Shown here one piece after another: positions 140 through 44,663 of a stretch of 46,004 nt of DNA; position 1 is the stretch's first letter, and every line of letters starts with the position of its first letter. The position numbers and the translations under genes were made by a program. The stretch covers positions 1 through 46,004 of the forward strand of contig CADAHS010000021.1 in assembly GCA_902787825.1 (NCBI GenBank). Reading direction: 5' to 3'. Below the pieces are notes generated by a model that did not search any database, was not told where the DNA came from, and was given only the letters and a program-made list of their open reading frames with translations. Origin of the DNA: an uncultured Ruminococcus sp. Lineage in GTDB: Bacteria > Bacillota > Clostridia > Oscillospirales > Ruminococcaceae.

Positions 140-1069
140 TCATTCATCAAAAAGCGGTGTTGAGAAGTATCTTTCCGCAGTATCGGGAAGCACGGTAACG
201 ACGACCTTGCCTTTGCCGAGCTTTTTAGCAAGCTTTTTTGCAGCAGCGACATTCGTTCCGCTGGATATACCGCACATTATTCCTTCAAGTCTTGCAAGGT
301 CTTTTGCGGTGTTGATAGCTTCGTCGTCGGTAACAATATAGATATTGCTGTATATACCAAGGTCGAGATTGTCGGGGATAATTCCGTCGCCTATGCCCAT
401 TTGCAAGTGTGTTCCGACCGTACCGCCGGCAAGGATCGCAGCATTTTCCGGCTCGACTGCCCAGATCTCGATATTGGGGTACTGTGCTTTGAGCACCTGA
501 CCGATGCCGCTGATAGTTCCCCCCGTTCCGATACCCGAGCAAAAGCCGTCAATGCGGCAGCCAGCCTGTTCAAGGATCTCCACCCCGGTATGGTACTTGT
601 GAGCCAACGGGTTTGCGGGGTTTGAGAACTGCTGGGGAACGAACACCTTCGGGTCCTTGGCAGCCATATCCTCAGCCATTTTCACGCACTTGTCCATACA
701 TTTGCCGATATTCCCCTCGTCGTGGACAAGGATGACCTCAGCGCCGTAGTGCCGAACAAGCTTTCGCCTTTCCTCACTCACCGAGTCGGGCATAATGATA
801 ATAGTCTTATACCCCCTGACTGCGCCGATAAGCGCAAGACCGATACCCTGATTTCCCGAAGTCGGCTCGACGATAATTGTATCTCTGTTTACAAGTCCGT
901 TCTTTTCGGCATCGAGGATCATATTATAGGCGGTTCTTGTTTTGATCGAACCACCGACATTGAGTCCTTCAAACTTTACGAGAATGTCGGCGCTGTCCTC
1001 ATCGACCATTCGACTGAGGCGGACAAGCGGCGTATGTCCGACATATTCCAGAATATTATTATAGATCAT
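140..1069 (-). CDS. cysK: Cysteine synthase (O-acetylserine sulfhydrylase), PLP-dependent
   Basis: Makes cysteine from O-acetylserine and sulfide in the cytoplasm. The 309-residue protein has the family's usual length and order: an N-terminal HTPLVRL segment, the PLP-lysine motif GGSIKTRTA (Lys about 43), the PTSGNQGIG phosphate-side loop, the GIGTGGTISG phosphate-binding loop and a C-terminal SSGTN segment. The lysine motif reads SIKTR where the textbook motif is SVKDR, so a related beta-substituting enzyme is possible. The second of two adjacent ATGs is best spaced from GGAGG. A single-gene unit with its own promoter at 1098-1126. Confidence 0.88.
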   Translation of the reverse strand: MIYNNILEYVGHTPLVRLSRMVDEDSADILVKFEGLNVGGSIKTRTAYNMILDAEKNGLVNRDTIIVEPTSGNQGIGLALIGAVRGYKTIIIMPDSVSEERRKLVRHYGAEVILVHDEGNIGKCMDKCVKMAEDMAAKDPKVFVPQQFSNPANPLAHKYHTGVEILEQAGCRIDGFCSGIGTGGTISGIGQVLKAQYPNIEIWAVEPENAAILAGGTVGTHLQMGIGDGIIPDNLDLGIYSNIYIVTDDEAINTAKDLARLEGIMCGISSGTNVAAAKKLAKKLGKGKVVVTVLPDTAERYFSTPLFDE

Positions 1070-1097
1070 CATTCAACCTCCAGCATTAGATAGTTAT

Positions 1098-1126
1098 ATT
1101 GTACCACATTTTCGTAGATTTTGCAA
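1098..1126 (-). promoter_or_regulatory. Predicted sigma-A promoter of cysK
   Basis: On the minus strand, TTGCAA (1121-1126) and TACAAT (1098-1103) are separated by 17 bases, with an extended TGTGG just before the -10 box. No binding site for a cysteine regulator was recognised. Confidence 0.6.
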
Positions 1127-1636
1127 CTAAAAGATGCCGGTACGGAGAGCTTTTGTTATTACGCCACGAAGCTGGACGCCGGTCATAGGCAAATCAAGCT
1201 CGCTGGCGGTCTGCGCCCAGCTGTGGAGCCGCTGTGTGTTATCGTTAAAATAGCGGTGTCTGACGACTTTTCTGACGAAAGGGCTGGGGATCTCCTCGAG
1301 GCTTTTTTCAAGCTCACGCTTTCTGAGCATCACCTTTGAAAGTTCCAGCCACAGGTCGATCATTTTGCAGCGTCCACGCTTATAATCCCTGTCGATAAGC
1401 TCCGGCTGGATCTCACGCTGTTTAGCGAGCTTTTCGACACGCATTGCGCTTTGGGTCAGCTCGAGGATCTCACGTTTAAGCAGTTTTTCTCTGTAAACAT
1501 AGCTTTTGTAGCGTCCAAGCTCTCTTGTATCAAGCTCTGCACACGGCTTTGTCTGCTCATTTATCCGGGTGATATTCATTATTTTATTATATGTTTCAAG
1601 CATATCTATTGCTGTAAAGAACTCTTTTGCACTCAT
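1127..1636 (-). CDS. Unknown helical protein with C-terminal HTH-like segment
   Basis: A 169-residue protein of unknown function. The N-terminal two thirds is charged and predicted helical or coiled-coil. The end (WAQTASELDLPMTGVQLRG) resembles the helix-turn-helix of sigma region 4-like or phage late-gene activator proteins such as the DUF1492/ArpU type. That likeness is by eye only. The ATG at 1636 follows AGGAGG at 7 bases and is preferred over an upstream in-frame start at 1672. It has no operon partner, and no clear terminator lies between it and cysK. Confidence 0.6.
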   Translation of the reverse strand: MSAKEFFTAIDMLETYNKIMNITRINEQTKPCAELDTRELGRYKSYVYREKLLKREILELTQSAMRVEKLAKQREIQPELIDRDYKRGRCKMIDLWLELSKVMLRKRELEKSLEEIPSPFVRKVVRHRYFNDNTQRLHSWAQTASELDLPMTGVQLRGVITKALRTGIF

Positions 1637-1793
1637 TTGCGTCCTCCTGTTCGTTTCAAACAAATCTTCCACGCTGTCGGGGCAACAGCTGAAACTTCAG
1701 AAATTCCACACTTTTCCTTGTTTCTGATATTATTATACAACATTTGTTTTGATTTGTCAAGAACATATGTTCGATATGAATACATTTATTTGT

Positions 1794-1829
1794 ACAAAAA
1801 AGAAAACCCACGCAGCAGCGCAGGTTTTC
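1794..1829 (-). terminator. Intrinsic terminator of first pilin-like gene
   Basis: GAAAACC...GGTTTTC hairpin with an interrupted stem, followed on the minus strand by a run of T. Placed directly after the stop codon at 1843. Confidence 0.75.
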
Positions 1830-1842
1830 AGGTGTTTAAAGA

Positions 1843-2337
1843 TCATTCAGGCACATACTGTGTACCAAAAGAAATGCTCTGAGCTTCAGAAGGAGTTTTA
1901 GGCGGATTAGGATACTGTCCTACGATCTGACCAGCGGTCGAGTCATTTCTTGGAGCCCACTGTGCAAATCCTACTGCACCATCGTCGTCCATTCTCAGTG
2001 CGATAGCACCGGAATCCTCGCCGTCGTCCTTCAATGCATCAGCAACAGCGTGGCAGACCTTAGCCGAATAGTCGTTACCGGTGACTTTAGTCTTTAGCTC
2101 GCTGACTTCCCATTTAGTAAAGAAAGTTTCCGAGTCCTCACCGTCACCGATACAGATCGCAGCCTGGCTCTTTGCAGTTGTGAAGATAAGCTTTGCATTA
2201 GCATTGGCAGCTTTAAGCCTTGCCTTCTTGACATAGTTCATCATTGTGGGGATCAGGATAGCCGCCAACACTCCAATTATGGCAATGACTACCACAAGCT
2301 CCACAAGGGTGAACCCTTTGCGGTTCTTAGTATTCAT
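1843..2337 (-). CDS. Type IV pilin-like protein (prepilin), copy 1
   Basis: A 164-residue prepilin. The short basic leader ends at Gly in RKGFTLVELVVVIAIIGVLA, the classic prepilin peptidase and N-methylation site, followed by the hydrophobic N-terminal helix and YVKKARLKAANANAK. The body is acidic and ends in a region rich in Gly, Pro and Gln. The start at 2337 has GGAGGG six bases upstream; the longer reading to 2424 has no ribosome site. It is a paralogue of the gene at 2551-3027, alike in the first 50 residues and in a C-terminal FAQW...TGQI.GQ.P segment. No pilus assembly genes are near. A role in adhesion is suggested by the pilin-like cellulose-binding protein CbpC of Ruminococcus albus, but is inference. 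Confidence 0.85.
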   Translation of the reverse strand: MNTKNRKGFTLVELVVVIAIIGVLAAILIPTMMNYVKKARLKAANANAKLIFTTAKSQAAICIGDGEDSETFFTKWEVSELKTKVTGNDYSAKVCHAVADALKDDGEDSGAIALRMDDDGAVGFAQWAPRNDSTAGQIVGQYPNPPKTPSEAQSISFGTQYVPE

Positions 2338-2406
2338 AATTTCCCTCCGTAATCTAACGCCGAAGCGTCCCCAATAGATACGAATTACACTCATAATTCC
2401 AATTAC

Positions 2407-2434
2407 ATTATAACAGATAATCAAAAAATGTCAA
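2407..2434 (-). promoter_or_regulatory. Predicted promoter of pilin copy 1
   Basis: Minus strand TTGACA (2429-2434), 16-base spacer, TATAAT (2407-2412). Both boxes are consensus, which suggests strong expression. Confidence 0.7.
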
Positions 2435-2483
2435 TAGGTTTGTGCCGTAACGAATTTATTTTACATATTTAATGAAAAAAGTC

Positions 2484-2514
2484 CAAAAAAGAACGGCTGC
2501 CGAAGCAACCGTTC
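2484..2514 (-). terminator. Intrinsic terminator of second pilin-like gene
   Basis: Ten-base stem GAACGGTTGC/GCAGCCGTTC (one wobble or mismatch) closed by a TTCG tetraloop and followed by six T on the minus strand. It separates the two pilin genes into independent transcripts. Confidence 0.9.
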
Positions 2515-2550
2515 TTGATGTTCTTTAGAAGAAGCTTATTTCGTTAAGGA

Positions 2551-3027
2551 TTAGCCCTTAGTACCGAATGTGAAGCCTTCAGCGTCAGAAACTTCCTTAG
2601 CAGGATCAGGGAACTGTCCAGTGATCTGACCAGTTGTTGTGCTGTTTGTCTGCCACTGAGCAAAGTTGCCTGTAGCGTCATCAGCCTGCTGCCATACTAC
2701 TACGCACCAGCCAGCGCCGTCGCCGTTGTCCTTGAGTGCATCATAAACAGCTGCCTTAAGGATATTGCTGTCGCCGTTCCATCCGTTGATCTCAACAGGT
2801 GTGGTCTCATTCAGGTCATCGATCTCGTCGCCGTCAGCGATCTTGTCAGCACCCTTGTTGTTAACTGTTGTGAAAACGAGCTTAGCGTTAGCGTTAGCTG
2901 TCTTCAGTCTTGACTTCTTAACATAGTTAAGCATTGTAGGAATGAGGATAGCTGCCAGAACACCGATGATTGCGATAACTACTACGAGCTCAACGAGTGT
3001 GAAGCCCTTCTTGTTTGACTTTCTCAT
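2551..3027 (-). CDS. Type IV pilin-like protein (prepilin), copy 2
   Basis: A 158-residue prepilin with the leader MRKSNKK, cleavage and methylation motif GFTLVELVV and a hydrophobic helix nearly identical to copy 1 (IIGVLAAILIPTM). The body differs from copy 1 but keeps the ending pattern FAQW..N..TTGQITGQFPDP. The start at 3027 follows GGAGGG at a normal distance. It has its own promoter about 120 bases upstream and its own terminator. It likely forms a short surface filament or adhesin once processed by prepilin peptidase and assembled by machinery encoded elsewhere. Confidence 0.85.
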   Translation of the reverse strand: MRKSNKKGFTLVELVVVIAIIGVLAAILIPTMLNYVKKSRLKTANANAKLVFTTVNNKGADKIADGDEIDDLNETTPVEINGWNGDSNILKAAVYDALKDNGDGAGWCVVVWQQADDATGNFAQWQTNSTTTGQITGQFPDPAKEVSDAEGFTFGTKG

Positions 3028-3063
3028 AGAAAATCCCTCCATAATAAAATTTAATATTAAAAG

Positions 3064-3117
3064 CATTGCACCCCAATATGCAATGAACTTTCCATAGATC
3101 ACTGACCTTTAAGGTCA
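3064..3117 (-). promoter_or_regulatory. Two inverted repeats in the pilin 2 leader
   Basis: Between the promoter (3154-3181) and the start at 3027 lie CATTGCA...TGCAATG (about 3066-3086) and the perfect palindrome TGACCTTTAAGGTCA (3103-3117). They could be operators or mRNA-stabilising hairpins. Copy 1 has no obvious equivalent. Confidence 0.4.
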
Positions 3118-3153
3118 TCGGCTAAGTGCTTTGTGTTCCTTAGCTTGATTATC

Positions 3154-3181
3154 ATTATACTCGAAATATCTGATTTGTCAA
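3154..3181 (-). promoter_or_regulatory. Predicted promoter of pilin copy 2
   Basis: Minus strand TTGACA (3176-3181), 16-base spacer, TATAAT (3154-3159). Same layout and spacing as the copy 1 promoter, giving a leader of about 120 bases. Confidence 0.7.
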
Positions 3182-3575
3182 TAGTTTTTTGCAAAGTTTT
3201 TTGAAGTTTGTGCAAATTGACAAATTCGGACGTTCCGTTCGGATATATTCGCCAAAATGTTTAACATATTGTACTAATTGAACATTTGACAAAAGAAAAA
3301 CAATTATTTGTAATCTATTGAGTTACATTTCACTGCATTTCTCCTGTTGACAATGCATAGTATACAACATAGAAATCAATTTGTCAATAGGTTTGACCAA
3401 ATTTGTTGAAAATATCACAAAAAATTATTTCTAAAGCTGTCAAAAAGGCAAAACGTACAAAAAATATTTACACGCTGTACATCTTACAGTCAAACAAATG
3501 GTCCAAAAACTGCCGCTGTGAGGGCATTTGGGGCACAGCTCACGCTGCGGATCACGCCGATATGTGCACTATACA
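3182..3575. other. AT-rich intergenic region without recognised gene
   Basis: About 390 bases between the pilin promoter and the cysteine desulfurase terminator. It is AT-rich and contains repeated TTTGTCAATAG-like strings (also at 3170-3190 and 2425-2435), which could be remnants of promoter duplications. No credible coding region or RNA was found. Confidence 0.4.
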
Positions 3576-3605
3576 CAAAAAGAAGCCCGACAGGCGAGCT
3601 TCTTT
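3576..3605 (-). terminator. Terminator of the cysteine desulfurase operon
   Basis: AAAGAAGC...GCTTCTTT hairpin with a T-rich tail on the minus strand, directly after the stop at 3614. Confidence 0.7.
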
Positions 3606-3613
3606 TACAGATT

Positions 3614-4732
3614 TCAGATCGAACCGATCGCTTTTGCGAGTGCGCTGACCTGCAAGGGGGTATTGAATACGGACGGTGAAAATCTCACCACGCCCTGTTC
3701 GGTCGTTGCGAGAGTGCGGTGGGCAAGCGCTGCACACTGCAGTCCCCCTCTGAGCGCAAATCCCTTCTGCGAGAGCTTTTGTGCGACCTCTTCGGAATGC
3801 ACATCTGCGATATTGAAGGCGGTCACAGGGAGTCTGGGGACGTTTTGCTCGTAGATCTTCACACGTTTATCCCGTGAAAGCAGCTGTTCAAACTGATCGC
3901 ATAGTTTTTTTTCGTGGCGCAGGATCGCTTGCGGAGTTTTTTTGCGCACAAACCGCAGACCTTCGCCAAGCCCGATGATGCCGACGGTATTGATAGTACC
4001 GCTTTCGAGCCTTTCGGGCAGAAAGCCGGTCTGCTCCAGCTGTGCAGAGGTGGCACCGGTCCCGCCCTCGATTATTGTGGAAAGTGCATAATTTCCGTTT
4101 GTGACGAGAAGCCCTGTTCCTGTCGGTCCGTAGAGCGATTTATGGCCTGCGGTACAGATAAAGTCAAAGCCGTCGTCGAGTGTTATATCCAGCACGCCCG
4201 CCGCCTGCGCCGCATCGCCGATAAAGCAGATGCCGCGGCGTTTGCACATCTGCGCAAGTCTGCGGTACGGCAGCACTCTGCCGGTGACGTTGGAAGCGAC
4301 GGTACACACCAGTGCACGGGTATCATGGCGGACGAGCTTTTCAAAGTTTTCAAGCGTCAGATCATCGTCATTTGTGACCTGCGCCACAGAGAAATCGACC
4401 CCTCGCATTTTCCACAATGCATAGACAGGTCTTGCGACGGCGTTGTGCTCATAGTCGGAAATTATGACATGGCCGCCGTACTGAGCGATGCCTTTGATCG
4501 CCATATTCAGTGCGAAGGTACAATTCTGCGTAAAAGCGACATTTTCGACCTGTGCGTGAAAAAAATCAGCCGCAAGCTGTCTGACATCAAAGACTTTTTG
4601 CGCCGCTTCCTCAGAAAGCCTGTGCCCTCCCCTGCCGGGATTGCCGCCGTAACGGCTGACTGCCGCAGACACGGCTCTTGCCACGCTTTCGGGCTTTGGA
4701 AAGCTGGTGGCTGAGTTGTCAAAATTTATCAT
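3614..4732 (-). CDS. Cysteine desulfurase family protein (class V aminotransferase)
   Basis: A 372-residue PLP enzyme of the NifS/CsdA type that removes sulfur (or selenium) from cysteine. The lysine motif AGHKSLYGPTG (Lys 198) and preceding GDAAQ are clear. A conserved Cys at about 333 in LQCAALAHRT sits where the catalytic persulfide cysteine of this subfamily is expected. The ATG at 4732 follows AGGAGAT. It lies 13 bases downstream of a DUF3343 gene in a two-gene operon. That partner is a proposed small sulfur or selenium carrier, so the pair may move sulfur to an unknown acceptor. No IscU or SufU scaffold is adjacent. Confidence 0.88.
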   Translation of the reverse strand: MINFDNSATSFPKPESVARAVSAAVSRYGGNPGRGGHRLSEEAAQKVFDVRQLAADFFHAQVENVAFTQNCTFALNMAIKGIAQYGGHVIISDYEHNAVARPVYALWKMRGVDFSVAQVTNDDDLTLENFEKLVRHDTRALVCTVASNVTGRVLPYRRLAQMCKRRGICFIGDAAQAAGVLDITLDDGFDFICTAGHKSLYGPTGTGLLVTNGNYALSTIIEGGTGATSAQLEQTGFLPERLESGTINTVGIIGLGEGLRFVRKKTPQAILRHEKKLCDQFEQLLSRDKRVKIYEQNVPRLPVTAFNIADVHSEEVAQKLSQKGFALRGGLQCAALAHRTLATTEQGVVRFSPSVFNTPLQVSALAKAIGSI

Positions 4733-4745
4733 AGATTATCTCCTG

Positions 4746-4961
4746 TCAGATCTGTATAACACTTCTGTATGGTATATTCAGCCTGTCAAGCTGTGCGGTG
4801 ATCCTCTCGGGAGGATCCTTGACTCTGAGCGAATATCCGCAGCCTGAGCCTGCATTTTTGGGCGTTTTTTCTATCTCGCAGAAAATCCCAAGACCATTGA
4901 GCAGTTTCTTTGCTTTCATGGCATAGGTTATCGAAGTCATTGTGATGAGCGTTTTTTTCAA
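4746..4961 (-). CDS. DUF3343 protein, putative sulfur or selenium carrier
   Basis: A 71-residue protein with the DUF3343 pattern: an N-terminal TSITYAMKAKKLL helix, then GSGCGYSLRV with a single conserved Cys, and a short C-terminal part ending in IPYRSV. Members of this family sit beside cysteine desulfurases and selenium genes and are annotated as Se/S carriers, which fits the neighbour here. The start codon is TTG at 4961, well placed after GGAGGG. It is the first gene of the operon. Confidence 0.8.
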   Translation of the reverse strand: MKKTLITMTSITYAMKAKKLLNGLGIFCEIEKTPKNAGSGCGYSLRVKDPPERITAQLDRLNIPYRSVIQI

Positions 4962-5042
4962 AGCGTACCCTCCTTTAGTTTTTTATCCGTCTGTGAAGCA
5001 GTATCGGACAATTCATTATATGCACGCCGGGGGTATGATGAC

Positions 5043-6915: not shown

Positions 6916-7743
6916 TCAGACAAGAGAGCTGATGTCTTCATAGGAAAGCGAAGGCTGAAGGGCAAGATTTATAGCCATAGCGATATACTCTGCACCGTTT
7001 TGAACAAGTCTGTCCACGCCTCTTGGAGTGACCATCATAGTACCGTCTGCCGAGCTGTAATCAATGACCGTGGGAATACCTATCGCAATGCAGTTTGCGC
7101 CGAGAGTCCGCCTTGAAAGCTCTTTTCTTGAATTTGCAACGCCGCTTCCCGGGGAGATACCCGTGTCGGTGAGCTGTATCGTCCGGCCGAGATTGTGTGT
7201 TTCGCTGCAGGCAAGGGCGTCCACCGCAATGACCGTATCTGCGTCGATACGGCTGCAGGCGGCTTTGACAAGATCGCTTGCCTCAATGCCCGTCTGTCCG
7301 AGCACTCCGGGACGTATCACGCTGACCTCGGTCAGCTCACCCATATCCAGCTCATTACCGAGCTGTCTGATATGGCGTGTTGCAAAGACCCTTTGTGCAC
7401 ACAGCGGTCCGATCGCATCCGGCGTTATGCTCTGATTGCCAAGCCCTGCAACGAGCACTCCCCGTGCGTTTGGGGCAAGCAGATGTATCTCGTGCGCAAT
7501 AAGCTGCGTGCGCAGCTTCATCACGTCGCTGTAATTCTCGATCCCCTCATCGGTCATTCTGACTGTAACATATCTGCCCACGGGCTTTCCAAGCTTTTCT
7601 GCGACTTGCTCGCTGAAAATGTGTATCCGCTGGATCTCCAGCTTAGCCTGCTCGTTCACTGCTGTGCGTGAGCCTACACCTTCGCAGTATATATCCCCTG
7701 CGCTGCTTATCACCTCAGAAGCCATATCTGTTCTTATTTTCAT
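6916..7743 (-). CDS. gpr: Germination protease GPR (spore protease)
   Basis: A 275-residue A25-family protease that starts the breakdown of small acid-soluble spore proteins at germination. The N-terminus MKIRTDMASE contains the motif at which the zymogen is processed. Internal landmarks are VLVAGLGNQSITPDAIGP, VIAVDALA and TDTGISPGSGVANSRKE, all typical of GPR. It is slightly shorter than Bacillus GPR. The ATG follows AGAGGACA. It is divergent from rpsT, an arrangement common in Clostridia. In spore formers gpr is read by sigma-F/G; no convincing forespore promoter was seen upstream. Confidence 0.93.
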   Translation of the reverse strand: MKIRTDMASEVISSAGDIYCEGVGSRTAVNEQAKLEIQRIHIFSEQVAEKLGKPVGRYVTVRMTDEGIENYSDVMKLRTQLIAHEIHLLAPNARGVLVAGLGNQSITPDAIGPLCAQRVFATRHIRQLGNELDMGELTEVSVIRPGVLGQTGIEASDLVKAACSRIDADTVIAVDALACSETHNLGRTIQLTDTGISPGSGVANSRKELSRRTLGANCIAIGIPTVIDYSSADGTMMVTPRGVDRLVQNGAEYIAMAINLALQPSLSYEDISSLV

Positions 7744-7847
7744 TGAGTTGTCCTCTTTTCACGGTTATTTTATGTATTTTCGTGCATACTGTCCATAAGG
7801 CAGAAAGATGCGATAGCAAAATTTGTGATCTTTTTTGCGAAAAAAGC

Positions 7848-7876
7848 TTGCAATTCGCACTCAGATGTGCTAAAAT
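7848..7876 (+). promoter_or_regulatory. Predicted promoter of rpsT
   Basis: TTGCAA (7848-7853), 17 bases, TAAAAT (7871-7876), with TGTGC before the -10 box. It leaves a leader of about 95 bases containing TAAGGGTAGCT...AGCTAACTTA, an imperfect hairpin that could serve S20 autoregulation (inference). Confidence 0.6.
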
Positions 7877-7981
7877 ATAATGCAAGGCTTGTTTATTAAG
7901 GGTAGCTGCATCTCCTCTCAGTCTGTAGCTAACTTATCCAAATAAGTGCGAATTTATTCATTAGGATCAGGAGGTGTCGGT

Positions 7982-8233
7982 ATGCCAAACATTAAGTCTG
8001 CTAAGAAGAGAGTTAAGGTAATTGCAACAAGAACTGCAAGAAACAAGGCTATCAAGTCTGACCTCAAGACAGCTCTCAAAAAGGCTGACGCAGCAGTAAA
8101 CGACAATGCCGAGAACAAGGCTGAGGTCGTAAGAGCTGCTATCAAGAAGGTTGATATGGCTTGCACAAAGGGAATCATGCACAAGAACAAGGCAGCCAGA
8201 AAGAAGTCACAGCTTGCTAAGAAGCTCGGCTAA
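7982..8233 (+). CDS. rpsT: 30S ribosomal protein S20
   Basis: An 83-residue, very basic helical protein of the small ribosomal subunit. It begins [12 protein letters not shown] and ends [16 protein letters not shown], both diagnostic for bacterial S20. The ATG at 7982 follows AGGAGGTG; an in-frame upstream ATG at 7946 is rejected because it would precede this ribosome site. Followed at once by a strong terminator, so a single-gene unit. Confidence 0.96.
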
Positions 8234-8243
8234 AAAGAAGATC

Positions 8244-8274
8244 AACGCCATCCATTGTGGGTGGCGTTTTTTTT
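8244..8274 (+). terminator. Terminator of rpsT
   Basis: Ten-base stem AACGCCATCC/GGGTGGCGTT, five-base loop, then eight T. Confidence 0.93.
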
Positions 8275-8318
8275 AGAGGTAAGAAGTAAGAAATAAGATT
8301 TAGAGGTAAGAGGCGGAA
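8275..8318 (+). repeat. Short AAGAGGTAAGA-type repeats behind a terminator
   Basis: Directly behind the rpsT terminator come several near-repeats of AGAGGTAAGA and AGTAAGAAATAAGA. The same words recur behind the pta terminator (33586-33612) and form both arms of the htpG terminator (33642-33675). Origin unknown. Confidence 0.5.
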
Positions 8319-8335
8319 AAAAAATTCCGCTGCAT

Positions 8336-8364
8336 TTGACAATATTATATTAATATAGTATAAT
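8336..8364 (+). promoter_or_regulatory. Predicted promoter of the amino-acid ABC operon
   Basis: Consensus TTGACA (8336-8341), 17 bases, consensus TATAAT (8359-8364). Confidence 0.75.
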
Positions 8365-8369
8365 ACTAA

Positions 8370-8406
8370 GGCATTACCACACAACTGCTGTGCGGTGCTG
8401 CCTTAA
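8370..8406 (+). promoter_or_regulatory. Hairpin in the ABC operon leader
   Basis: AAGGCA...TGCCTT encloses ACC...GGT and CACA...TGTG arms, a nearly continuous interrupted stem of about 13 pairs starting at the transcript's 5' end. No T run follows, so it is not an intrinsic terminator. It may stabilise the mRNA or form a regulatory structure. Confidence 0.45.
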
Positions 8407-8437
8407 TGCTTTAATACTTTATTATGGTGGTGTAAAA

Positions 8438-9148
8438 ATGGATTGGGAGGCAATAAAAAAAGTAACGGGGATCTTGTTTGACTATCTTCCGAACACCCTG
8501 AAGCTTTTTACGATAACACTTTTATTCTCAATACCGGTCGGAATGTTGGTAACAATGCTCAAAAAGTGCCGGTTCAAGCCTGTTGCGTGGCTGACGAATC
8601 TTTATATTCTGATAATGCGAGGCACACCTCTGATGCTTCAGATAATTGCGATCTACTACGCTGTGCCGATGCTCAAGGCTAACTTTGCATCAGGCTCGGA
8701 CGGTTTTTTCGCAAGCTTTGTAAACAGCATTGATACCCGAAGCGACAGCTATATGTTCACTGCTTTGTGCGTTGCGTTCGTACTGAACTATGCGGCGTAT
8801 TTTGCTGAGATATTCAGAGGAGGTGTTGACTCGATACCTAAAGGGCAATATGAGGCGGCTTCAATGCTTGGAATGACAAAGATGCAGACGTTTATCCGCA
8901 TAATCCTGCCGCAGGTCACAAAAAGAGTCGTTCCTGCTACTGCAAACGAGGTCATCACGCTGGTGAAGGACACCTCGCTTGCAAATGTTATCGCTTACGC
9001 TGAGATAACCATGAAGGCAAAGCAGCAGATGAACACATACAGTTCTATCATTCCGCTGTTCATCGCAGGTTTGTTCTATTTTGTGCTCAATGCGATCGTT
9101 ACGGTGATCTTTTCTCTCATAGAAAAGAAATTCAACTACTATAAATAA
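8438..9148 (+). CDS. Amino-acid ABC transporter permease (HisM/GlnP type)
   Basis: A 236-residue inner-membrane permease of a polar amino-acid importer. Hydrophobic segments alternate through the protein. The cytoplasmic EAA loop that contacts the ATPase is visible as YEAASMLGMTKMQTFIRIILP around 145-165, and RGTPLMLQI marks the family's N-terminal part. The ATG at 8438 has GGTGGTG upstream and is preferred to an ATG at 8390 inside the leader hairpin. The ATPase gene follows 13 bases later. No substrate-binding protein gene is present, so the substrate cannot be named. Confidence 0.9.
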   Translation: MDWEAIKKVTGILFDYLPNTLKLFTITLLFSIPVGMLVTMLKKCRFKPVAWLTNLYILIMRGTPLMLQIIAIYYAVPMLKANFASGSDGFFASFVNSIDTRSDSYMFTALCVAFVLNYAAYFAEIFRGGVDSIPKGQYEAASMLGMTKMQTFIRIILPQVTKRVVPATANEVITLVKDTSLANVIAYAEITMKAKQQMNTYSSIIPLFIAGLFYFVLNAIVTVIFSLIEKKFNYYK

Positions 9149-9161
9149 GGAGGACTTGAAG

Positions 9162-9926
9162 TTGGCTATTCTTGAAGTTAAAAATATCGCCAAAAGCTTT
9201 GACGGAAATCAGGTCCTCAAGGATATCTCATTCAATGTTGAGCAGGGTCAGGTGGTTGCGATAATCGGACCGTCAGGAAGCGGAAAATCAACGCTGCTGC
9301 GGTGTATCAACCAGCTTGAAAAAGCCGACGGCGGAGAGATATGCGTTGACGGGACAAGAATGTTTTACACAGACAGCGAGAGAAACAAGGTGGTTTACGC
9401 ATCAAAGCAGGAGCTGCGTGACATAAGGCTGAAGATCGGTCTTGTGTTTCAGAATTTCAACCTGTTCCCGCACTTCAATGTTATGCACAATATCACCGAG
9501 GCACCTGTGCACGTTCTGAAAAAATCAAAAGAAGATGCTGAAAAGCAGGCAATGGAGCTGCTTGAAAAAATGGGGCTGACAGGCAAGGAAAAAGCCTATC
9601 CCTGCGAGCTTTCAGGCGGACAGCAGCAGAGAGTTTCCATTGCAAGGGCACTGGCTTTGAAGCCACAGATACTGTTTTTTGACGAGCCGACCTCGGCTCT
9701 TGACCCTGAGCTTACGGGCGAGATACTCAAAGTAATAAAGGAGCTTGCCAAGGAAAAGATGACTATGGTCATCGTCACGCATGAAATGGCGTTTGCAAGA
9801 GATGTTGCAAACCACGTTATCTTTATGGACGAGGGCTATATCGTTGAGGAAGGCTCTCCCGATGAACTGTTCGGCAACACCCAAAACGACAGGACAAAGC
9901 AGTTTCTTGCAAGATTCAAGGACTGA
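9162..9926 (+). CDS. Amino-acid ABC transporter ATP-binding protein (GlnQ/HisP type)
   Basis: A 254-residue ATPase powering the permease encoded just upstream. Walker A GPSGSGKST, Q-loop NFNLFPH, signature LSGGQQQR, Walker B ILFFDEPTSALDP and the switch His in VIVTHEMAFA are all intact. The TTG at 9162 lies 8 bases after AAGGAGG and is chosen over a TTG at 9156 only 2 bases away. It carries a roughly 10-residue insertion after VDGTRM (FYTDSERNKV), seen in some clostridial members. Confidence 0.93.
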   Translation: MAILEVKNIAKSFDGNQVLKDISFNVEQGQVVAIIGPSGSGKSTLLRCINQLEKADGGEICVDGTRMFYTDSERNKVVYASKQELRDIRLKIGLVFQNFNLFPHFNVMHNITEAPVHVLKKSKEDAEKQAMELLEKMGLTGKEKAYPCELSGGQQQRVSIARALALKPQILFFDEPTSALDPELTGEILKVIKELAKEKMTMVIVTHEMAFARDVANHVIFMDEGYIVEEGSPDELFGNTQNDRTKQFLARFKD

Positions 9927-37536: not shown

Positions 37537-37565
37537 TTGAAAATGCACAGAAAATGTGGTATACT
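37537..37565 (+). promoter_or_regulatory. Predicted promoter of the phosphoribosyltransferase-like gene
   Basis: TTGAAA (37537-37542), 17 bases, TATACT (37560-37565), with TGTGG before the -10. Confidence 0.65.
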
Positions 37566-37603
37566 ATATCTTACAATTAAAAAGCGATAAGGAGGCTTTC
37601 TTA

Positions 37604-38233
37604 ATGGAAGATCGTATGCAGACTATCGAATGTCGTAGTAACAGCAAGGTATCCATAGGTGTTATACCCGGTCACTATGCTACAAACCACTCACACGTCA
37701 ACTACTACGTTGATATGACCTCAATAAAAACAAGTATGAAAATGGCTAACGAAGCGGCTAAAGAGCTTGCAGCCACCTACGCTTCAACGCACGTTGACAC
37801 GATCATCTGCCTTGAGGGTACAGAGATACTCGGAGCATTTCTTGCTCGCAGCCTTTCAGAAGCAGGCATCAACAGCGGCTCTGACATCAACGTTGTTACT
37901 CCTGAGCTGAATGCGGTAAATCAGATGATCTTCCGTGACAATACGCAGAAAAAGATCTGGGGCAAACAGGTGCTTTTGTTCATCTCCTCCGCTTCTACCG
38001 GAAAGAGCATCGCAAGGGCTATGGACTGCTTGCAGTACTATAACGGTCATCTCGTTGGCGTTGCCGCTATATTCTCCGCCATCAAGGAAACCGGCGGTAT
38101 CAAGCTGCACTCTCTGTTCAGCGAAAAGGATCTGCCTGATTATCAGTCATTTGCCGCTAACGAATGTCCGCTTTGCAAGACCGGACAGAAGGTCGATGCG
38201 CTTATCAACAGCTTCGGCTACTCAAAGCTTTAA
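37604..38233 (+). CDS. Phosphoribosyltransferase-like protein (orotate PRT type)
   Basis: A 209-residue type I PRT-fold protein. TIICLEGTEILGAFLARSLS resembles the N-terminal core strand of orotate PRT. The PRPP-binding motif position reads LLFISSASTGKS (127-135) instead of the usual acidic DDVxTTG, so the two acidic residues are missing. A CPLCKTG pair (Cys 188, 191) near the end may bind metal. It may be a regulator or an altered enzyme rather than a real pyrE, and no pyrimidine genes are near. Start ATG with GGAGG upstream. Confidence 0.75.
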   Translation: MEDRMQTIECRSNSKVSIGVIPGHYATNHSHVNYYVDMTSIKTSMKMANEAAKELAATYASTHVDTIICLEGTEILGAFLARSLSEAGINSGSDINVVTPELNAVNQMIFRDNTQKKIWGKQVLLFISSASTGKSIARAMDCLQYYNGHLVGVAAIFSAIKETGGIKLHSLFSEKDLPDYQSFAANECPLCKTGQKVDALINSFGYSKL

Positions 38234-39203: not shown

Positions 39204-39478
39204 AAAAAGAGGCTGGTGCATAAGTGCTGTACTTATACAGAAGCATTATAAATGATTTTTGGGGAAAACCCTTTTGCAAAAGGGTTATTCCCCAAGCCCC
39301 TTTCCTAAAACTCTTAATGATTTTTTAACCCCGATGGTTAAAACCATCGGGGTTAAAAAATAGTTATGGTCAAGAAATGCGGCTGGGAAACAGTCCTTCG
39401 CAATAAAAGATATTACTCAAAATGATTTATATAACTTCTATATAGGTGCTACCCTTAACTGCATCAACCTCTTATTTT
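39204..39478. terminator. Bidirectional terminator split by a repeat insertion
   Basis: AAAAAGAGGCTGGTGCA (39204-39220) and TGCATCAACCTCTTATTTT (39460-39478) are inverted repeats (14-base stem, one wobble, one mismatch) separated by repeat copy B. Closing them over TAAC restores a terminator between the convergent GT2 and dynamin genes. Confidence 0.7.
39221..39458. repeat. MITE-like element, copy B (long form, about 238 bp)
   Basis: The terminal inverted repeats TAAGTGCTGTAC and its partner near 39425-39457 match those of copy C. Between them is an extra module with two palindromes: TGGGGAAAACCC...GGGTTATTCCCCA (39260-39294) and a perfect 19-base-arm palindrome (39321-39360, TTTTTTAACCCCGATGGTT arm) that would itself act as a bidirectional terminator. 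No coding capacity. Confidence 0.8.
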
Positions 39479-41255
39479 ACACCTCGTATCCGTACTCGCT
39501 GAGTATCCTTTGCGGCTCTTTCAGAAGCTCTCTTGCCTTGGCGATAGTTGACCTGATCTCGTTGTTGTCAAGCTGACCTATCATCTCCTGTGTCTGCGAG
39601 ATAGCCTCCTTGTTAAGCCCTATCTGGTACTTATAAAGACCCTCGAGCCTTGACAAAGCCTTTGTTTCAAGGTCCTGATAAACCGTCTTGATATCCTTTA
39701 CGATATTGTTTCTGATATCGTCATAGTTTTCAAGAGCAATGTCAATGATATCCGTCTGCTTTTTCTTTTTGAGAATAAGGCTGAACGAGCTCATAGTTGC
39801 CGGCGGGAAGGTCTCGCTTGTTCCGAACAGCTTAACGCCCATAACACTTCTGGTAACGTTCTTATTCACCGACATCATTATTCTCTCCACCGACGGAGCC
39901 TTTGATTCATCACTGAACTCCTCGATACCAAGAGAATTTGAAAGCTCTCTGCTCATCTTCTCAACAAGCTCTGTTATCCTGTCTCTGTGATTCTCGATAC
40001 AGGTTCTGTACGCCTCCCCCACCTTTTCCATAAGATAAGGGTAGAAATACTTTTCGATGTCCTCTGCCGGGAACTTGTCCTCGCCTGTTTCCTCGTTCTT
40101 GCTGCGGCATTCGAGAATGCTTGACCTGAGCTTTGAGAAAAACTCATACATCCACTTTTCAGCTTCCTGCTGCATTTCTATTATTGACAGGTGCAGACCC
40201 GGCTTCTTTTCTTCAAGAGCCTGTTCAAGCTCCTGTCCCTTTGATTCTATCGCACTGACCTTTTCAGCAAGCTTTTGCTGGTCAAGTTCTGCCATTTCGC
40301 TGATAAGGTCAAGCTTGGTCTTTGTTTCCTCCCACATCTGGCTGAGCATCGTCAGCACTCTCTGCGAACGGATAACATCCTTTTGCATGATTATATCACG
40401 CTTGAGCGACAGCTCGAACTGAAGGAACTGCGTTTCGTAAAGATCTCTGAAATTCCCCTTGCTCTGGGGTCTTTCAAGTCCCATTCTCCTTGCGAACTCA
40501 TCAGCGCCGCTTATTCCGTAAACGACCGCATTGGGGACTATCCTTCCCGCAATGGTCTTGAAGCGTCTGAGTATCCTGTGAGCGTCCTGGCGGCTTTCCA
40601 GCGCGTCGAGCATATTTACAAGTATATACAGCATACCGAATCTCTGCGGCTGAACGTGTGTTGCAAGAAACGTCTGCTCAGTCTCCGAAAAAGGCATCAG
40701 GCAGGAAGCTGCATACATGATAGCGTCCGCATTAACGATATAATCCCTGACTTCCTTATCCAGCGTTTCAAGATCCGACAGACCCGGAGTATCCACGATC
40801 TTTATCTCGTTAAGTATCGGTGAATTGTCCTTGATCTGAACATAAGAGATCTTCGACGGGAACAGCTTCATACGCTGTTCAAGCTTCTCACGCTTTATAT
40901 CGTCGATCGTCAGCGGCACTCTTCTTCCGTTTTCAAGGAAAGCCGTGACCGTTCTGAAATTGCCAAAAGATATCTCGTTGATCGTGTATGTTTCGGGTGT
41001 TGCATTTGTCGGCGTAAGCTCTTTTCCGAGAATAGCGTTTATTATTGTGCTTTTGCCTCGTTTGAACTCACCCAGTATGACCAGTGTGAACGGCTCGTCC
41101 ATCTTTTTGCCTATAAGACCGTCCCAGTCCTTTAGCTCGCTTACGAACTCCGTACCCAGCACATTAGCTATCTGCGGGTCGTCGATCACAGAATTAAGGC
41201 AGGATCTTATTCTTGAGATATTATAGCTGTCGGCATTGTTCTTATCTGTTCCCAT
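39477..41255 (-). CDS. Dynamin-like GTPase, soluble type
   Basis: A 592-residue large GTPase. P-loop GEFKRGKST (62-70), G2 Thr region PTNATPETYT, G3 DTPG (155-158), G4-like NMLD (214-217). Long helical stalk with coiled-coil segments after about 290. No hydrophobic membrane paddle is visible, unlike the other GTPase of this operon. It starts at an ATG overlapping the stop of the preceding gene (TGATG), so translation is coupled. Third gene of the operon. It probably pairs with the paddle-bearing partner, as in heterotypic bacterial dynamin pairs. Confidence 0.88.
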   Translation of the reverse strand: MGTDKNNADSYNISRIRSCLNSVIDDPQIANVLGTEFVSELKDWDGLIGKKMDEPFTLVILGEFKRGKSTIINAILGKELTPTNATPETYTINEISFGNFRTVTAFLENGRRVPLTIDDIKREKLEQRMKLFPSKISYVQIKDNSPILNEIKIVDTPGLSDLETLDKEVRDYIVNADAIMYAASCLMPFSETEQTFLATHVQPQRFGMLYILVNMLDALESRQDAHRILRRFKTIAGRIVPNAVVYGISGADEFARRMGLERPQSKGNFRDLYETQFLQFELSLKRDIIMQKDVIRSQRVLTMLSQMWEETKTKLDLISEMAELDQQKLAEKVSAIESKGQELEQALEEKKPGLHLSIIEMQQEAEKWMYEFFSKLRSSILECRSKNEETGEDKFPAEDIEKYFYPYLMEKVGEAYRTCIENHRDRITELVEKMSRELSNSLGIEEFSDESKAPSVERIMMSVNKNVTRSVMGVKLFGTSETFPPATMSSFSLILKKKKQTDIIDIALENYDDIRNNIVKDIKTVYQDLETKALSRLEGLYKYQIGLNKEAISQTQEMIGQLDNNEIRSTIAKARELLKEPQRILSEYGYEV

Positions 41256-42229
41256 CAGCTCTGCCCTCCGTTTCCGACTATAATACTGGTGCGGACATCG
41301 CAGATCTGAACAGGCTGGATCTTCAGTTCCTTGCCGTCGATATCATTTCTCCAGTCATACAGCGTAGCGCAATACAAAAACTCGTTAGCCGCAAGAATGC
41401 TTCTTTCGATCTCAGTAAGTCCTTCCTCGACCTTGAGGCTTCTTGAATCCATTGCGTGTATCTGTTCTGAAATAACATCAAGATCTTTGAAGTTCTCCTG
41501 CTTTCTGCCGTAGAAATCCATATAGCCTTTTTTGAACAGTCCGCTGAGTATCCCGATAAATCTTCCGGGCTTGTCAAGGCAGATTATGCCTGCTCTGAGG
41601 GCGGTCTGCTCTCCGAATTTCACCCAGCCCGAAAGAGCCGTGTAAAGCTGGCTGCTCACGGGTGACGGATAGCTTCTGGTGACAGGTCTGTAACAGTCCT
41701 TATTTACATTGAGGTATGTATAAGCGATATTGAACTGACAATGTCCGTTCTGTATCCTGCCGCACTCACAGCCCACAAGAAGCGTAAGCTCGTCCTCGCT
41801 GCACATCTGCACGAGGCTTTTTGAGATAACGATGCAGGGGTCTATCATCTCGCTTGCTATTGAATATATCAGAGCCTTGTTGATGTCCTCACGGATAAAC
41901 ACGATCGGCACCACAAGCTCAAGTCTTTCGCTGCACTTTTTGACGATGTCATATATCTCCGGATATTTCAGCGGTCCGACCTGATCGCATTTCATGAACA
42001 GGTGCTTTGCCTCGGCAGAAATATCCTGAGTATTCACCGCTTTGAACAGCTTTGAAGCTCCGCCCAGCCCCATGATCTTCTGTCTGACCGCATAATCAGA
42101 CTCGTAAGCATAGTCAAGATTGCCGTTGACAGTATGCCCCTGGAAAGACCGTGTATATGCTGTGAGGTAGGCTTCAAAATCCGTGTCGATACTCAACAGC
42201 GGATTTTGTGTTTGCGATACTTCATTCAT
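41255..42229 (-). CDS. Degenerate M48-type peptidase (pseudo-peptidase)
   Basis: A 324-residue protein. Around 105-165 it follows the M48 metallopeptidase pattern (VPIVFIRED, PCIVISKSLV, SEDELTLLVG), but where HExGHIxxGH is expected it reads CECGRIQNGH (154-163). The downstream third-ligand region WxRxxExxADRAG reads WVKFGEQTALRAG (Glu 207 kept, Asp lost). Both catalytic His are gone, so zinc proteolysis is unlikely. The Cys 154, Cys 156, His 163, Cys 164 group could bind a metal differently. No membrane helix is evident. It lies between and is coupled to two dynamin-like GTPases. Confidence 0.7.
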   Translation of the reverse strand: MNEVSQTQNPLLSIDTDFEAYLTAYTRSFQGHTVNGNLDYAYESDYAVRQKIMGLGGASKLFKAVNTQDISAEAKHLFMKCDQVGPLKYPEIYDIVKKCSERLELVVPIVFIREDINKALIYSIASEMIDPCIVISKSLVQMCSEDELTLLVGCECGRIQNGHCQFNIAYTYLNVNKDCYRPVTRSYPSPVSSQLYTALSGWVKFGEQTALRAGIICLDKPGRFIGILSGLFKKGYMDFYGRKQENFKDLDVISEQIHAMDSRSLKVEEGLTEIERSILAANEFLYCATLYDWRNDIDGKELKIQPVQICDVRTSIIVGNGGQS

Positions 42230-42279
42230 TATTTGTCCTCCATGATCTTTATTGTGGTATCAGCTGCAAACAAAGCGGA

Positions 42280-44331
42280 CTAAGCATCCATCTGCTCTGT
42301 GAGCACCTTTCTGACAGCATATGCGTCCTGAACGATCTTGCTGGCGCTTTCAGCGACGTTATGCAGCCTTTCCATTTCCTTCTGGGAAACACTGCTCTTC
42401 TGAGTTTTGAGGTCATTGAGGTTATCCAGTGTTTCCTGAGTATCACGGAGTATGATCTCTGTTTCTTCTTCTATCTTTTTCTTGAGTCCCTCAAACGATG
42501 AGAATACCTGACGGCGGACAGTTTCGGTAAAGTCGTTGTTCAGCTTCATCTCATGGAACTGCTTTTTGACCTGAGTTTTGAAATTGGATTTGAATTTTTC
42601 TATTCTTTCCTTGACAAGTATCTTATCGATCGCAAAGTTCGATGTGAAGGTACCTGCGATGCCTGCCACTGCCATAAGCACAAGTGTCACTGGCAGAGCT
42701 GTGGTGATGCCGAAGAATCCTGCAAACACTACCGAAGCATAGTAGGTAGCATAGAAGCTTGTCAGACCCGTTGCACCGCCAAGCAGTGCGCCCTTGAGTC
42801 CGGACTCCCTGAATCCGAGGAACAGACCTCCCACGCCGTAGGAACCGATCGCAACACCTATGATCTTATCTACAACACCGCCGTTTTGCGTCACACGGTT
42901 AGAGATAGTGAACATCTCCTGTATCCTTGCAACGCTCTCAAAGAATGCGTCCTCAAAGCCCTGAAGTCTTTCAGCCTCACCGCTGACTGCAACATTGATC
43001 TGGTTCTGGATCTGCTCACAGATTATCTGTGCCCTGACCTCGATAGATTCTCTGATCTTCTCTGTCAGCTTAGCCGAAACGAGCTTGAGCTGATCCTTCT
43101 TGAAGTCATCAGATGACATCTGGAAGTTATCAATGACCTGCATAGCAGCTTCCTCTATCTTATCCCAGTAGCTGTCAAGGATAGGCTGGAGGCTGTTGAA
43201 TACCTGGTTAGCAGAATCATTGATCTTAACGAATTCCTCTCTCTTCTTATTTCTTATCTCCTCGATCTCCTTTATGGCAGCGTCATACTTCACCATAAAT
43301 TCATCGTTAGCCATCATAAGTGCATTTTCCTGCATTACGACGTTTCTGAGTATCTCGGTACCTGAGTTTGTGATCTTGTTTGTGATTATCTGGAGGGATA
43401 TAACGCCGCGCTCTTTTGTGAGCATACTTTCAAGGGCGTTCTCAAACTCGGGGAAATTACTTTCCTCAAGCATTGCCCGATCGCCCGTAGTCTTTGCAAT
43501 GAGAGCCTTCTTAGCGTACACGCCGATAACTCTCGGAGTTCCGATCTTTCTTTTATAAACGGCAAACTCACGGGAATCCTCTCCCATGACCTTCTTTGCC
43601 TTTTCCATAACATATCTGCCTATTCTCGTACGGACAGTCTCAACTATCTTGTTCTCGTCCTCCTGTGAGAATGTTCCAAAGCAGTTGACAACAAAGATGA
43701 TCCTTCCCACGTCAGAGGTCATCATCTTCTTTTCAAGAAATTCCTTTTCAAACTGTGAAAAAGGCGAGTTTGCGCTGATAACAAACACAGCGGCATCTAT
43801 CTTGGGCAGTATCGACAGCGTAACGCTGGTCATCTGCTCATCATCATTCAGACCCGGAGTGTCGATGATATCAACATTCTTCTTGCAGAATTCAGTATCG
43901 TAGTAGACCGTAGCTTCCTTAACGGTCTCCGCTCTCTCCTCAGATTCTGCCGTCAGCTTGGTAACATAGTCCTCAAGCTTGCCTATATCGACCCTTTCGC
44001 TGTTGCCGTTTTTATACTCGACCTGCACATACGGCTCGGTGCTGTATGTAACCCTGTTCAGAGTTGCAGTCGCAGGCAGAACGTCAGCAGGCAATACCTC
44101 CTGACCCAGCATCGCATTGATAAGTGTTGACTTTCCTCTTTTGAACTCGCCTACGATAGCGACCTCAAAATGTTCGTCCTTGGTCTTGGCGATAGTCTCC
44201 TCCAACGATTTCGCCGTGTTGACGAGACAGATCTCGTCGCTGAGCTGCAAAAGCTCCTCCAGATCGGCGGTAAGGTTTTCCATAGTCTGCTTATACGCCG
44301 AATAGCTTCCGTAGTCAATCTGCTTTTCCAT
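42280..44331 (-). CDS. Dynamin-like GTPase with membrane paddle
   Basis: A 683-residue large GTPase. P-loop GEFKRGKST (61-69), G2 PATATLNR, G3 DTPG (157-160), and a G4 position reading VVNCFG without the usual Asp. A long helical middle region is followed by an extended hydrophobic stretch (about 486-565, rich in Gly and Ala) that should insert into membrane, then a return helix bundle. The ATG at 44331 follows AGGAGG at 6 bases. First gene of the operon; 50 bases to the next gene. Predicted to remodel or guard the cell membrane. Confidence 0.9.
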   Translation of the reverse strand: MEKQIDYGSYSAYKQTMENLTADLEELLQLSDEICLVNTAKSLEETIAKTKDEHFEVAIVGEFKRGKSTLINAMLGQEVLPADVLPATATLNRVTYSTEPYVQVEYKNGNSERVDIGKLEDYVTKLTAESEERAETVKEATVYYDTEFCKKNVDIIDTPGLNDDEQMTSVTLSILPKIDAAVFVISANSPFSQFEKEFLEKKMMTSDVGRIIFVVNCFGTFSQEDENKIVETVRTRIGRYVMEKAKKVMGEDSREFAVYKRKIGTPRVIGVYAKKALIAKTTGDRAMLEESNFPEFENALESMLTKERGVISLQIITNKITNSGTEILRNVVMQENALMMANDEFMVKYDAAIKEIEEIRNKKREEFVKINDSANQVFNSLQPILDSYWDKIEEAAMQVIDNFQMSSDDFKKDQLKLVSAKLTEKIRESIEVRAQIICEQIQNQINVAVSGEAERLQGFEDAFFESVARIQEMFTISNRVTQNGGVVDKIIGVAIGSYGVGGLFLGFRESGLKGALLGGATGLTSFYATYYASVVFAGFFGITTALPVTLVLMAVAGIAGTFTSNFAIDKILVKERIEKFKSNFKTQVKKQFHEMKLNNDFTETVRRQVFSSFEGLKKKIEEETEIILRDTQETLDNLNDLKTQKSSVSQKEMERLHNVAESASKIVQDAYAVRKVLTEQMDA

Positions 44332-44570
44332 CACAAACCTCCTGTTCCGATGATACGGTAATTAACTTCCGTAAGAATGATATAACAGCCGAGAGTTTCT
44401 ATTATACAAAATAGTCACAAACGATTAATCATATTACCACATAGTAGATTATAACACACCTTTTCATTCATCGTCAAGAATTATTATCACCATCGAAACA
44501 AAATTACCCTTTTACACAAAACGCAATCGAATAATTAGACATTTTGCACACATTTTTTCAGCGGTTTAAC
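44332..44570. other. Dynamin operon upstream region
   Basis: About 240 bases, AT-rich, holding the operon promoter (44448-44477) and a leader of about 110 bases. No further gene or RNA recognised. Confidence 0.4.
44448..44477 (-). promoter_or_regulatory. Predicted promoter of the dynamin operon
   Basis: Minus strand TTGACG (44472-44477), 18 bases, TATAAT (44448-44453), with TGTGT before the -10. Suggests constitutive sigma-A expression. Confidence 0.7.
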
Positions 44571-44600
44571 AAAAACAGGTGCATACACTGATGCACCTGC
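44571..44600 (-). terminator. Terminator of the radC operon
   Basis: CAGGTGCAT/ATGCACCTG stem with a T-rich tail on the minus strand. Confidence 0.85.
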
Positions 44601-44663
44601 CACAAGATATTGTGTTTTTGAACCGATACTGCCGGGTCGCCGCCGATAGTCGAAGCATCGCCG

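Follow-up and report, generated by a model that had tools for sequence, protein, structure and literature searches.

A tight minus-strand operon in the DNA analysed here, a stretch of 46,004 nucleotides from an uncultured Ruminococcus species (assembly GCA_902787825.1, contig CADAHS010000021.1; hereafter the window), encodes two unlike dynamin-like GTPases, which we call GT1 and GT2, together with an intervening relative of the M48 peptidases that has lost the canonical zinc site. The three genes are inherited together across related genomes, the middle gene is under purifying selection, and relatives with an intact M48 motif occupy the same gene place in other lineages. We consider it somewhat better than an even bet that the trio forms one functional unit, in which a heterotypic pair of dynamins is joined by a non-catalytic regulator of M48 fold, itself descended from a dynamin-linked zinc peptidase. 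The three genes are as follows:

42280..44334, minus strand: GT1, bacterial dynamin-like GTPase (BDLP-like) with a membrane hairpin, 684 amino acids
41255..42229, minus strand: M48-like pseudopeptidase, soluble, 324 amino acids, with CECGRIQNGH at residues 154-163
39477..41255, minus strand: GT2, soluble dynamin-like GTPase, 592 amino acids

A conserved unit of two dynamin-like GTPases and an M48-like protein

A scan of named genomes returned 165 relatives, the best 80 of which were retained for locus counts. The full colinear arrangement of GT1, M48-like gene and GT2 on one strand was found in 73 of these 80 loci, and the other seven end at a contig edge next to the M48-like gene. A preliminary description of this DNA, made from its letters, had proposed asking whether dynamin-like genes flank the middle gene across genomes; among the best 80 of the 165 relatives, a dynamin gene adjoins it on either side wherever the contig extends far enough. 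The association is therefore beyond chance and consistent in all 80 of these loci. The stop of the M48-like gene lies between -8 and +6 bases from the nearest GT2 start in 69/73 loci, whereas the gene flanks vary (the next commonest neighbour is found in 22/81 loci, many of the contigs being short). Directly after GT2, six of the 80 loci (L123, L125, L126, L133, L134 and L135) carry a YceG-domain gene (PF14266, 9.8e-57 in L134) and a TelA gene (PF05816, 6e-95 in L134), a co-location that hints, weakly, at envelope stress.

Co-inheritance was also evident in a sample of 247 genomes of the family, which, owing to their shared ancestry, are not 247 independent tests. An M48 match was present in 42 and a GT2 match in 38, with 37 common to both, and strong matches to the M48-like protein and to GT2 mark the same 37 genomes. 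Matches in the five M48-only genomes (G087, G253, G123, G207 and G266) are weak (4.2e-7 or worse), and the three of these that were opened (G087, G253 and G123) encode longer HExxH proteins of another type; in the single genome with GT2 alone (G162), the dynamin match is weak (3.7e-18). Given this identical presence in 37 genomes, the preservation of the unit amid changing flanks and the near-overlap of its genes, it is very improbable that the three are mere neighbours with no joint function.

The M48-like gene is present in 29/29 genomes of the genus (in G027 as a contig-edge piece only) and in 5/6 genomes of another genus, where the genome that lacks it is 79% complete. Named hosts include the cultured Ruminococcus albus 8 and R. 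bicirculans 80/3. In this distribution, over Ruminococcus and gut bacteria related to it, the degenerate trio looks like a core function of its lineage. Such genus-wide fixation speaks against a phage-defence system of the ordinary, patchy kind, and we therefore rank lower, as unlikely, the idea of anti-phage or abortive-infection activity in which the dynamin pair would act at the damaged membrane with the M48-like protein as infection sensor. This idea, already hinted at in the preliminary description, draws on the finding that DynA of Bacillus subtilis delays phage lysis (PMC8844932; this and the other sources cited by PMC number were available as partial texts, to which statements about them are limited), on weak matches of GT1 to the PADLOC LeoA and LeoBC models (8.1e-17 and 8.7e-17), on the patchiness of the intact version of the trio described below (one of the 11 genomes in its genus, that of G079) and on a phage-labelled, unverified scaffold in which the trio stands beside integrase-like genes. 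The flanks of the trio are variable, however, and viral contigs, searched with patterns from one sequence that reach close relatives only, gave no match. The scaffold in question (L210; MT836781.1, 8795 bases), which comes from human faeces and was submitted as a bacteriophage, has a complete trio at 175-4984. Beyond the trio, the opposite strand encodes a 473-amino-acid protein and two short ones, which by eye resemble an integrase with its helix-turn-helix partners. The scaffold may represent a mobile copy or else host DNA that flanks an integrated element.

The two GTPases both match Pfam Dynamin_N (E values of 2.5e-33 for GT1 and 1.5e-21 for GT2), with 24% identity between them. Residues 53-667 of GT1 align with Nostoc BDLP (PDB 2j68; 7.6e-29), as do residues 19-343 of GT2 (5.6e-18). 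In GT1, residues 535-569 form a hydrophobic stretch (Kyte-Doolittle mean over 19 residues of up to 2.12); by the same measure no hydrophobic segment above 1.6 was found in GT2 (maximum 1.08) or in the M48-like protein (maximum 1.19). The G1 and G3 motifs of GT1 are identical in 73/73 rows, with NCFGT at the G4 place in all, and those of GT2 are kept in 75/75 rows, save for E/D and S/A swaps. As judged from these alignments, GT1 is a bacterial dynamin-like protein, with a GTPase domain and a predicted helical trunk bearing a membrane paddle, and GT2 has a Dynamin_N GTPase domain with no paddle predicted. Soluble dynamin partners that lack a paddle are known. In genomes G000 and G001, the only Dynamin_N matches at E <= 1e-10 are the two belonging to the trio.

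Within the window, the open frames on one strand bear out the gene order of the preliminary description, together with the 50-base gap between GT1 and the M48-like gene (42230-42279) and the single base shared by the stop of the M48-like gene and the start of GT2 (TGATG). The ATG proposed as the start of GT1, at 44331, is present as well, with a GTG directly before it at 44334, so that the frame runs from 44334 to 42280. Three further features accompany the genes:

44448..44477, minus strand: promoter-like site TTGACG-18-TATAAT with a TG, 5' of GT1, matching the consensus at 11/12 positions
44574..44601, minus strand: terminator-like hairpin in the interval between the upstream radC and GT1, 11 pairs with a T-rich tail
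39312..39372, minus strand: hairpin 3' of GT2 with T/A-rich flanks, a likely terminator (-28.3 kcal/mol, z -7.8)

Since the whole window contains 12 promoter-like sites against 7.7 expected, the site 5' of GT1 is a consensus match only and by itself no functional evidence. The hairpin between radC and GT1 supports the trio as a separate transcription unit, and within the trio itself the minus strand showed no terminator-like site. Elsewhere in the window, at 37556-38233 on the plus strand, a gene encodes a protein weakly like orotate phosphoribosyltransferase (2e-8, far under the cut-off).

The altered zinc site of the M48-like protein

At the place where M48 peptidases carry the HExxH....H motif, the window protein reads CECGRIQNGH. 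This region was compared across 81 rows (the window and the 80 named loci). The first zinc-binding His is present in none of them, being replaced by Cys in 44, Ser in 25, Ala in 7, Gly in 2 and Ile, Phe or Tyr in one each, and the second His of the motif survives in 12 rows, with Arg in 65 and Lys in 4. At place 207, which corresponds to the third ligand, 74 rows have Asp and seven, including the window, have Glu, the residue that serves as third zinc ligand in active M48 peptidases. The canonical zinc site has thus been lost, from which we strongly infer that catalysis has been lost with it. Six residues, Glu155, Asn161, His163, Trp202, Thr209 and Arg212, are nevertheless fixed in 81/81 rows.

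A rival view is that the protein has remained a metalloenzyme through a changed set of ligands (Cys or Ser 154, Asp 207 and His 163). Such a site would fit with Glu155, Asn161, His163 and acidity at place 207, all kept in 81/81 rows, and with Cys154 in 44/81. Against this, seven different residues (C, S, A, G, I, F and Y) occur at place 154, Arg or Lys replaces the second His in 69/81 rows, and divergent family members have lost either the motif Glu (L056, which reads TGISKTHNNH) or the acidic residue at 207 (L049 and L055), so that we regard this as quite improbable. Another divergent member, L184, reads RECGRIQNEQ.

Loss of the zinc site has not been accompanied by decay of the gene. The ratio of nonsynonymous to synonymous substitution rates (dN/dS) was 0.031-0.084 over eight pairs (0.046 for the window against L057), in the same range as, or slightly higher than, the 0.003-0.063 measured for GT1 and GT2. 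With values this low the M48-like gene is no pseudogene, and the protein it encodes is under purifying selection.

The preliminary description had identified the middle protein as a degenerate M48 peptidase, and its relatives support this. PF01435 was matched by 35/42 of them at E <= 1 (best 3.7e-9), and two intact relatives described below match Pfam M48 at 6.2e-20 (L183) and 5.8e-20 (L199). A family profile also picks up intact M48-type peptidases from other families, with best values of 5.3e-24 and 3.6e-25. Searches of the PDB with the M48-like protein gave a best value of 0.68, which is chance level, and those with its profile gave Ste24 at 0.043 and HtpX at 0.14, in the right motif region without being significant. 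With the family data included, a relation to M48 peptidases is evident, and the protein is probably of M48 descent with a predicted M48 fold.

Intact M48 relatives and the history of the trio

Two loci carry the same gene order with the peptidase motif complete. L183, from the same family, encodes a GT1-M48-GT2 trio in which the M48 protein has an intact HECGHIHNNH, and L199, from another family of the class, encodes one with HECGHVHNEH; Glu stands at the place of the third ligand in both. The two are only distantly related to each other, with identities of 39% for M48, 32% for GT1 and 29% for GT2. L199 is the one intact trio among 38 genomes of G961's family. Upstream, both loci possess an extra dynamin-like gene, followed by zinc-ribbon-type genes (L183, 2734-6075; L199, 3960-6309), which suggests a larger original operon. 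Related arrangements include L185, in which an M48 frame with HECGH is interrupted by a stop and followed by GT2, and L169, L176, L177, L178 and L182, in which an intact M48 gene adjoins dynamins, lying before them, after them or one gene off.

In a tree of 54 rows, 16 of them intact, all intact rows fall on one side of a single branch (support 100/100, present in 100% of bootstrap trees). With a root among the intact forms, the first His need have been lost only once, and at least two changes are needed to account for the second His. L183 and L199 are placed beside the degenerate clade, and the simplest reading of this topology is that M48 proteins of this type were already associated with dynamins before the active site was lost. 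The dynamin trio would then have existed first with an intact M48 peptidase, which lost its zinc site and was retained; in the Ruminococcus lineage, decay of the site would have begun with the first His and later extended to the second His and the Glu ligand.

Altered M48 motifs were also seen outside the trio. In L200, three M48-type genes stand in a row on the minus strand (7143-9614), of which one keeps an intact HELGH and two have no HExxH. They lie upstream of GTPase-like genes, one of which matches DO-GTPase2 (6.2e-9), in what seems to be another setting where M48 copies close to GTPases have lost the active site. In L218 (4614-5432), from a distant member of the phylum, an M48-type protein without HExxH has no dynamin beside it, and it therefore seems that the motif has been lost more than once in the wider group.

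Possible function and comparison with known systems

How might such a unit operate? By analogy with paired dynamins elsewhere, the membrane-inserting GT1 and the soluble GT2 would work together at the membrane as unlike partners. The M48-fold protein, a cytosolic component, would bind one or both GTPases through its old substrate cleft and would set their assembly or their recruitment to the membrane, the trio serving core envelope maintenance on the cytosolic side of that membrane. Binding via the former cleft would explain why the six invariant residues listed above are fixed when the zinc site is gone.

Several results weigh against this reading. Taken alone, the window M48-like protein matches Pfam M48 with an E value of 0.26 (11.5 bits, for a cut-off of 20.3), and retention of the motif Glu in 81/81 rows leaves some room for other chemistry. 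Long branches, flagged by a program warning, make the exact order of L183 and L199 in the tree unsure. Among wider M48 relatives, linkage to a dynamin was found in 7/20 genomes, or in 7/12 when only genomes with Dynamin_N at E <= 1e-10 are considered, a limit set after the list had been inspected and dropping short frames that look like Era or Der types. The eight genomes left out at this limit, having no such dynamin, were G503, G626, G621, G663, G802, G999, G1024 and G1186, and the unlinked genomes among the 12 were G771, G624, G692, G547 and G992. Three further relatives (L216-L218) have no dynamin nearby. Of ten plasmid records with M48 relatives, six were opened; no dynamin was seen among the annotated neighbours in five, and the sixth, H5, is unannotated.

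Random placement within 10 kb predicts 0.12 linked genomes of the 12, giving a P value of about 4.5e-12 for a set that was defined post hoc and includes related genomes. Of 13 control genomes with an HtpX-like M48, three have a dynamin at the limit (G861, G670 and G731), in each case on another contig than the M48 gene. The pairing of M48 with dynamins is therefore real, yet far from obligatory outside the trio. A further candidate for a linked case, L201 (8553-13736), has an intact M48 gene followed after 258 bases by genes for LeoBC-like (4.6e-101) and LeoA-like (1.8e-112) GTPases; it was not counted, because the close M48 relative in G999, a genome of the same genus, lacks adjoining genes of this kind and because the Dynamin_N match of L201 lies above 1e-10.

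The seven linked genomes, with an intact M48 gene in or beside dynamin operons in several gene orders, bring to mind mitochondria, where the M48 peptidase OMA1 cuts the dynamin OPA1 (PMC8027119). In a bacterial circuit of this kind, the intact M48 protein would cut a dynamin and stop remodelling under stress, and the Ruminococcus form would be a dead but obligate subunit that acts by binding alone, in a hold-and-release manner. We treat such an analogous regulatory module as a tentative and rather doubtful possibility. OMA1 is a membrane protein of the intermembrane space, whereas the M48 proteins here have no membrane segment and should for that reason be cytosolic; their tie to dynamins is one of gene linkage, neither a cleavage site nor a cutting activity being known, and most intact M48 relatives are not beside dynamins.

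The tandem bacterial dynamin operon is a known arrangement, in which the M48-like third member of the trio is unusual. The preliminary description knew of no system with a pseudo-M48 protein as linking member. Among the matches listed in the open-access literature (a scope that leaves aside subscription papers and preprints), we found no description of an M48-dynamin operon, and the only listed match naming a bacterial dynamin and M48 together (PMC9839784) concerns, by its title, murine GBP2. Control of bacterial dynamins, which are mostly paired, is poorly known, and a co-encoded peptidase relative offers an entry point. Because active and dead M48 forms occur in the same gene place, they would permit a direct test of whether proteolysis or binding controls dynamin assembly. 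If the proposed function is correct, the trio would provide a clear example of a core operon in which a pseudoenzyme has become obligatory.

Most bacterial dynamins occur in tandem (PMC4159319), and a close parallel is Cj-DLP1/DLP2 of Campylobacter jejuni (PDB 5owv), two unlike, co-encoded dynamins that form a membrane-tethering 2:2 heterotetramer (PMC6104087). GT1 matches both chains of this structure (2.9e-15 and 1.1e-8) and GT2 matches one (8.2e-8). The trio differs in possessing an M48 gene, of which the accessible part of PMC6104087 makes no mention for Cj-DLP1/2, and its GT1-GT2 pair is a putative heteromer. Nostoc BDLP1 (PDB 2j68, 2j69 and 2w6d) resembles GT1, which aligns with it over almost its full length and shares the membrane hairpin; BDLP1 stands in tandem with BDLP2, and no peptidase gene is described there in the available text of PMC4159319. 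LeoABC of enterotoxigenic Escherichia coli likewise consists of tandem dynamin genes (PMC4159319) and gives weak profile matches, but it is without an M48 gene, and GT1 reaches at most 59.5 bits with the PADLOC models, compared with 338 and 375 bits for the LeoBC and LeoA relatives in L201. RdcA-RdcB (CrfC/YjdA-YjcZ) of E. coli also combines a soluble dynamin-like GTPase gene with that of a small non-GTPase partner; unlike the trio it has one dynamin and acts in cyclase regulation, and the available part of PMC6510439 does not present RdcB as related to peptidases. On the peptidase side, when set against HtpX and other bacterial M48 peptidases, intact trio members match HtpX profiles (up to 3.9e-14, in L199), yet they fall far under the equivalog cut-off (52.5 against 355 bits), have no membrane helices and have dynamins as operon partners.

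In OMA1-OPA1, too, an M48 peptidase is paired with a membrane-remodelling dynamin (PMC8027119). OMA1 is membrane-bound, active and in another compartment, whereas in the bacterial case the genes stand together and the M48 protein of the window lineage has degenerated. The trio asks whether the mitochondrial pairing of M48 with dynamin has a bacterial counterpart and, by this analogy, may itself represent a bacterial counterpart of the mitochondrial peptidase-dynamin control circuit.

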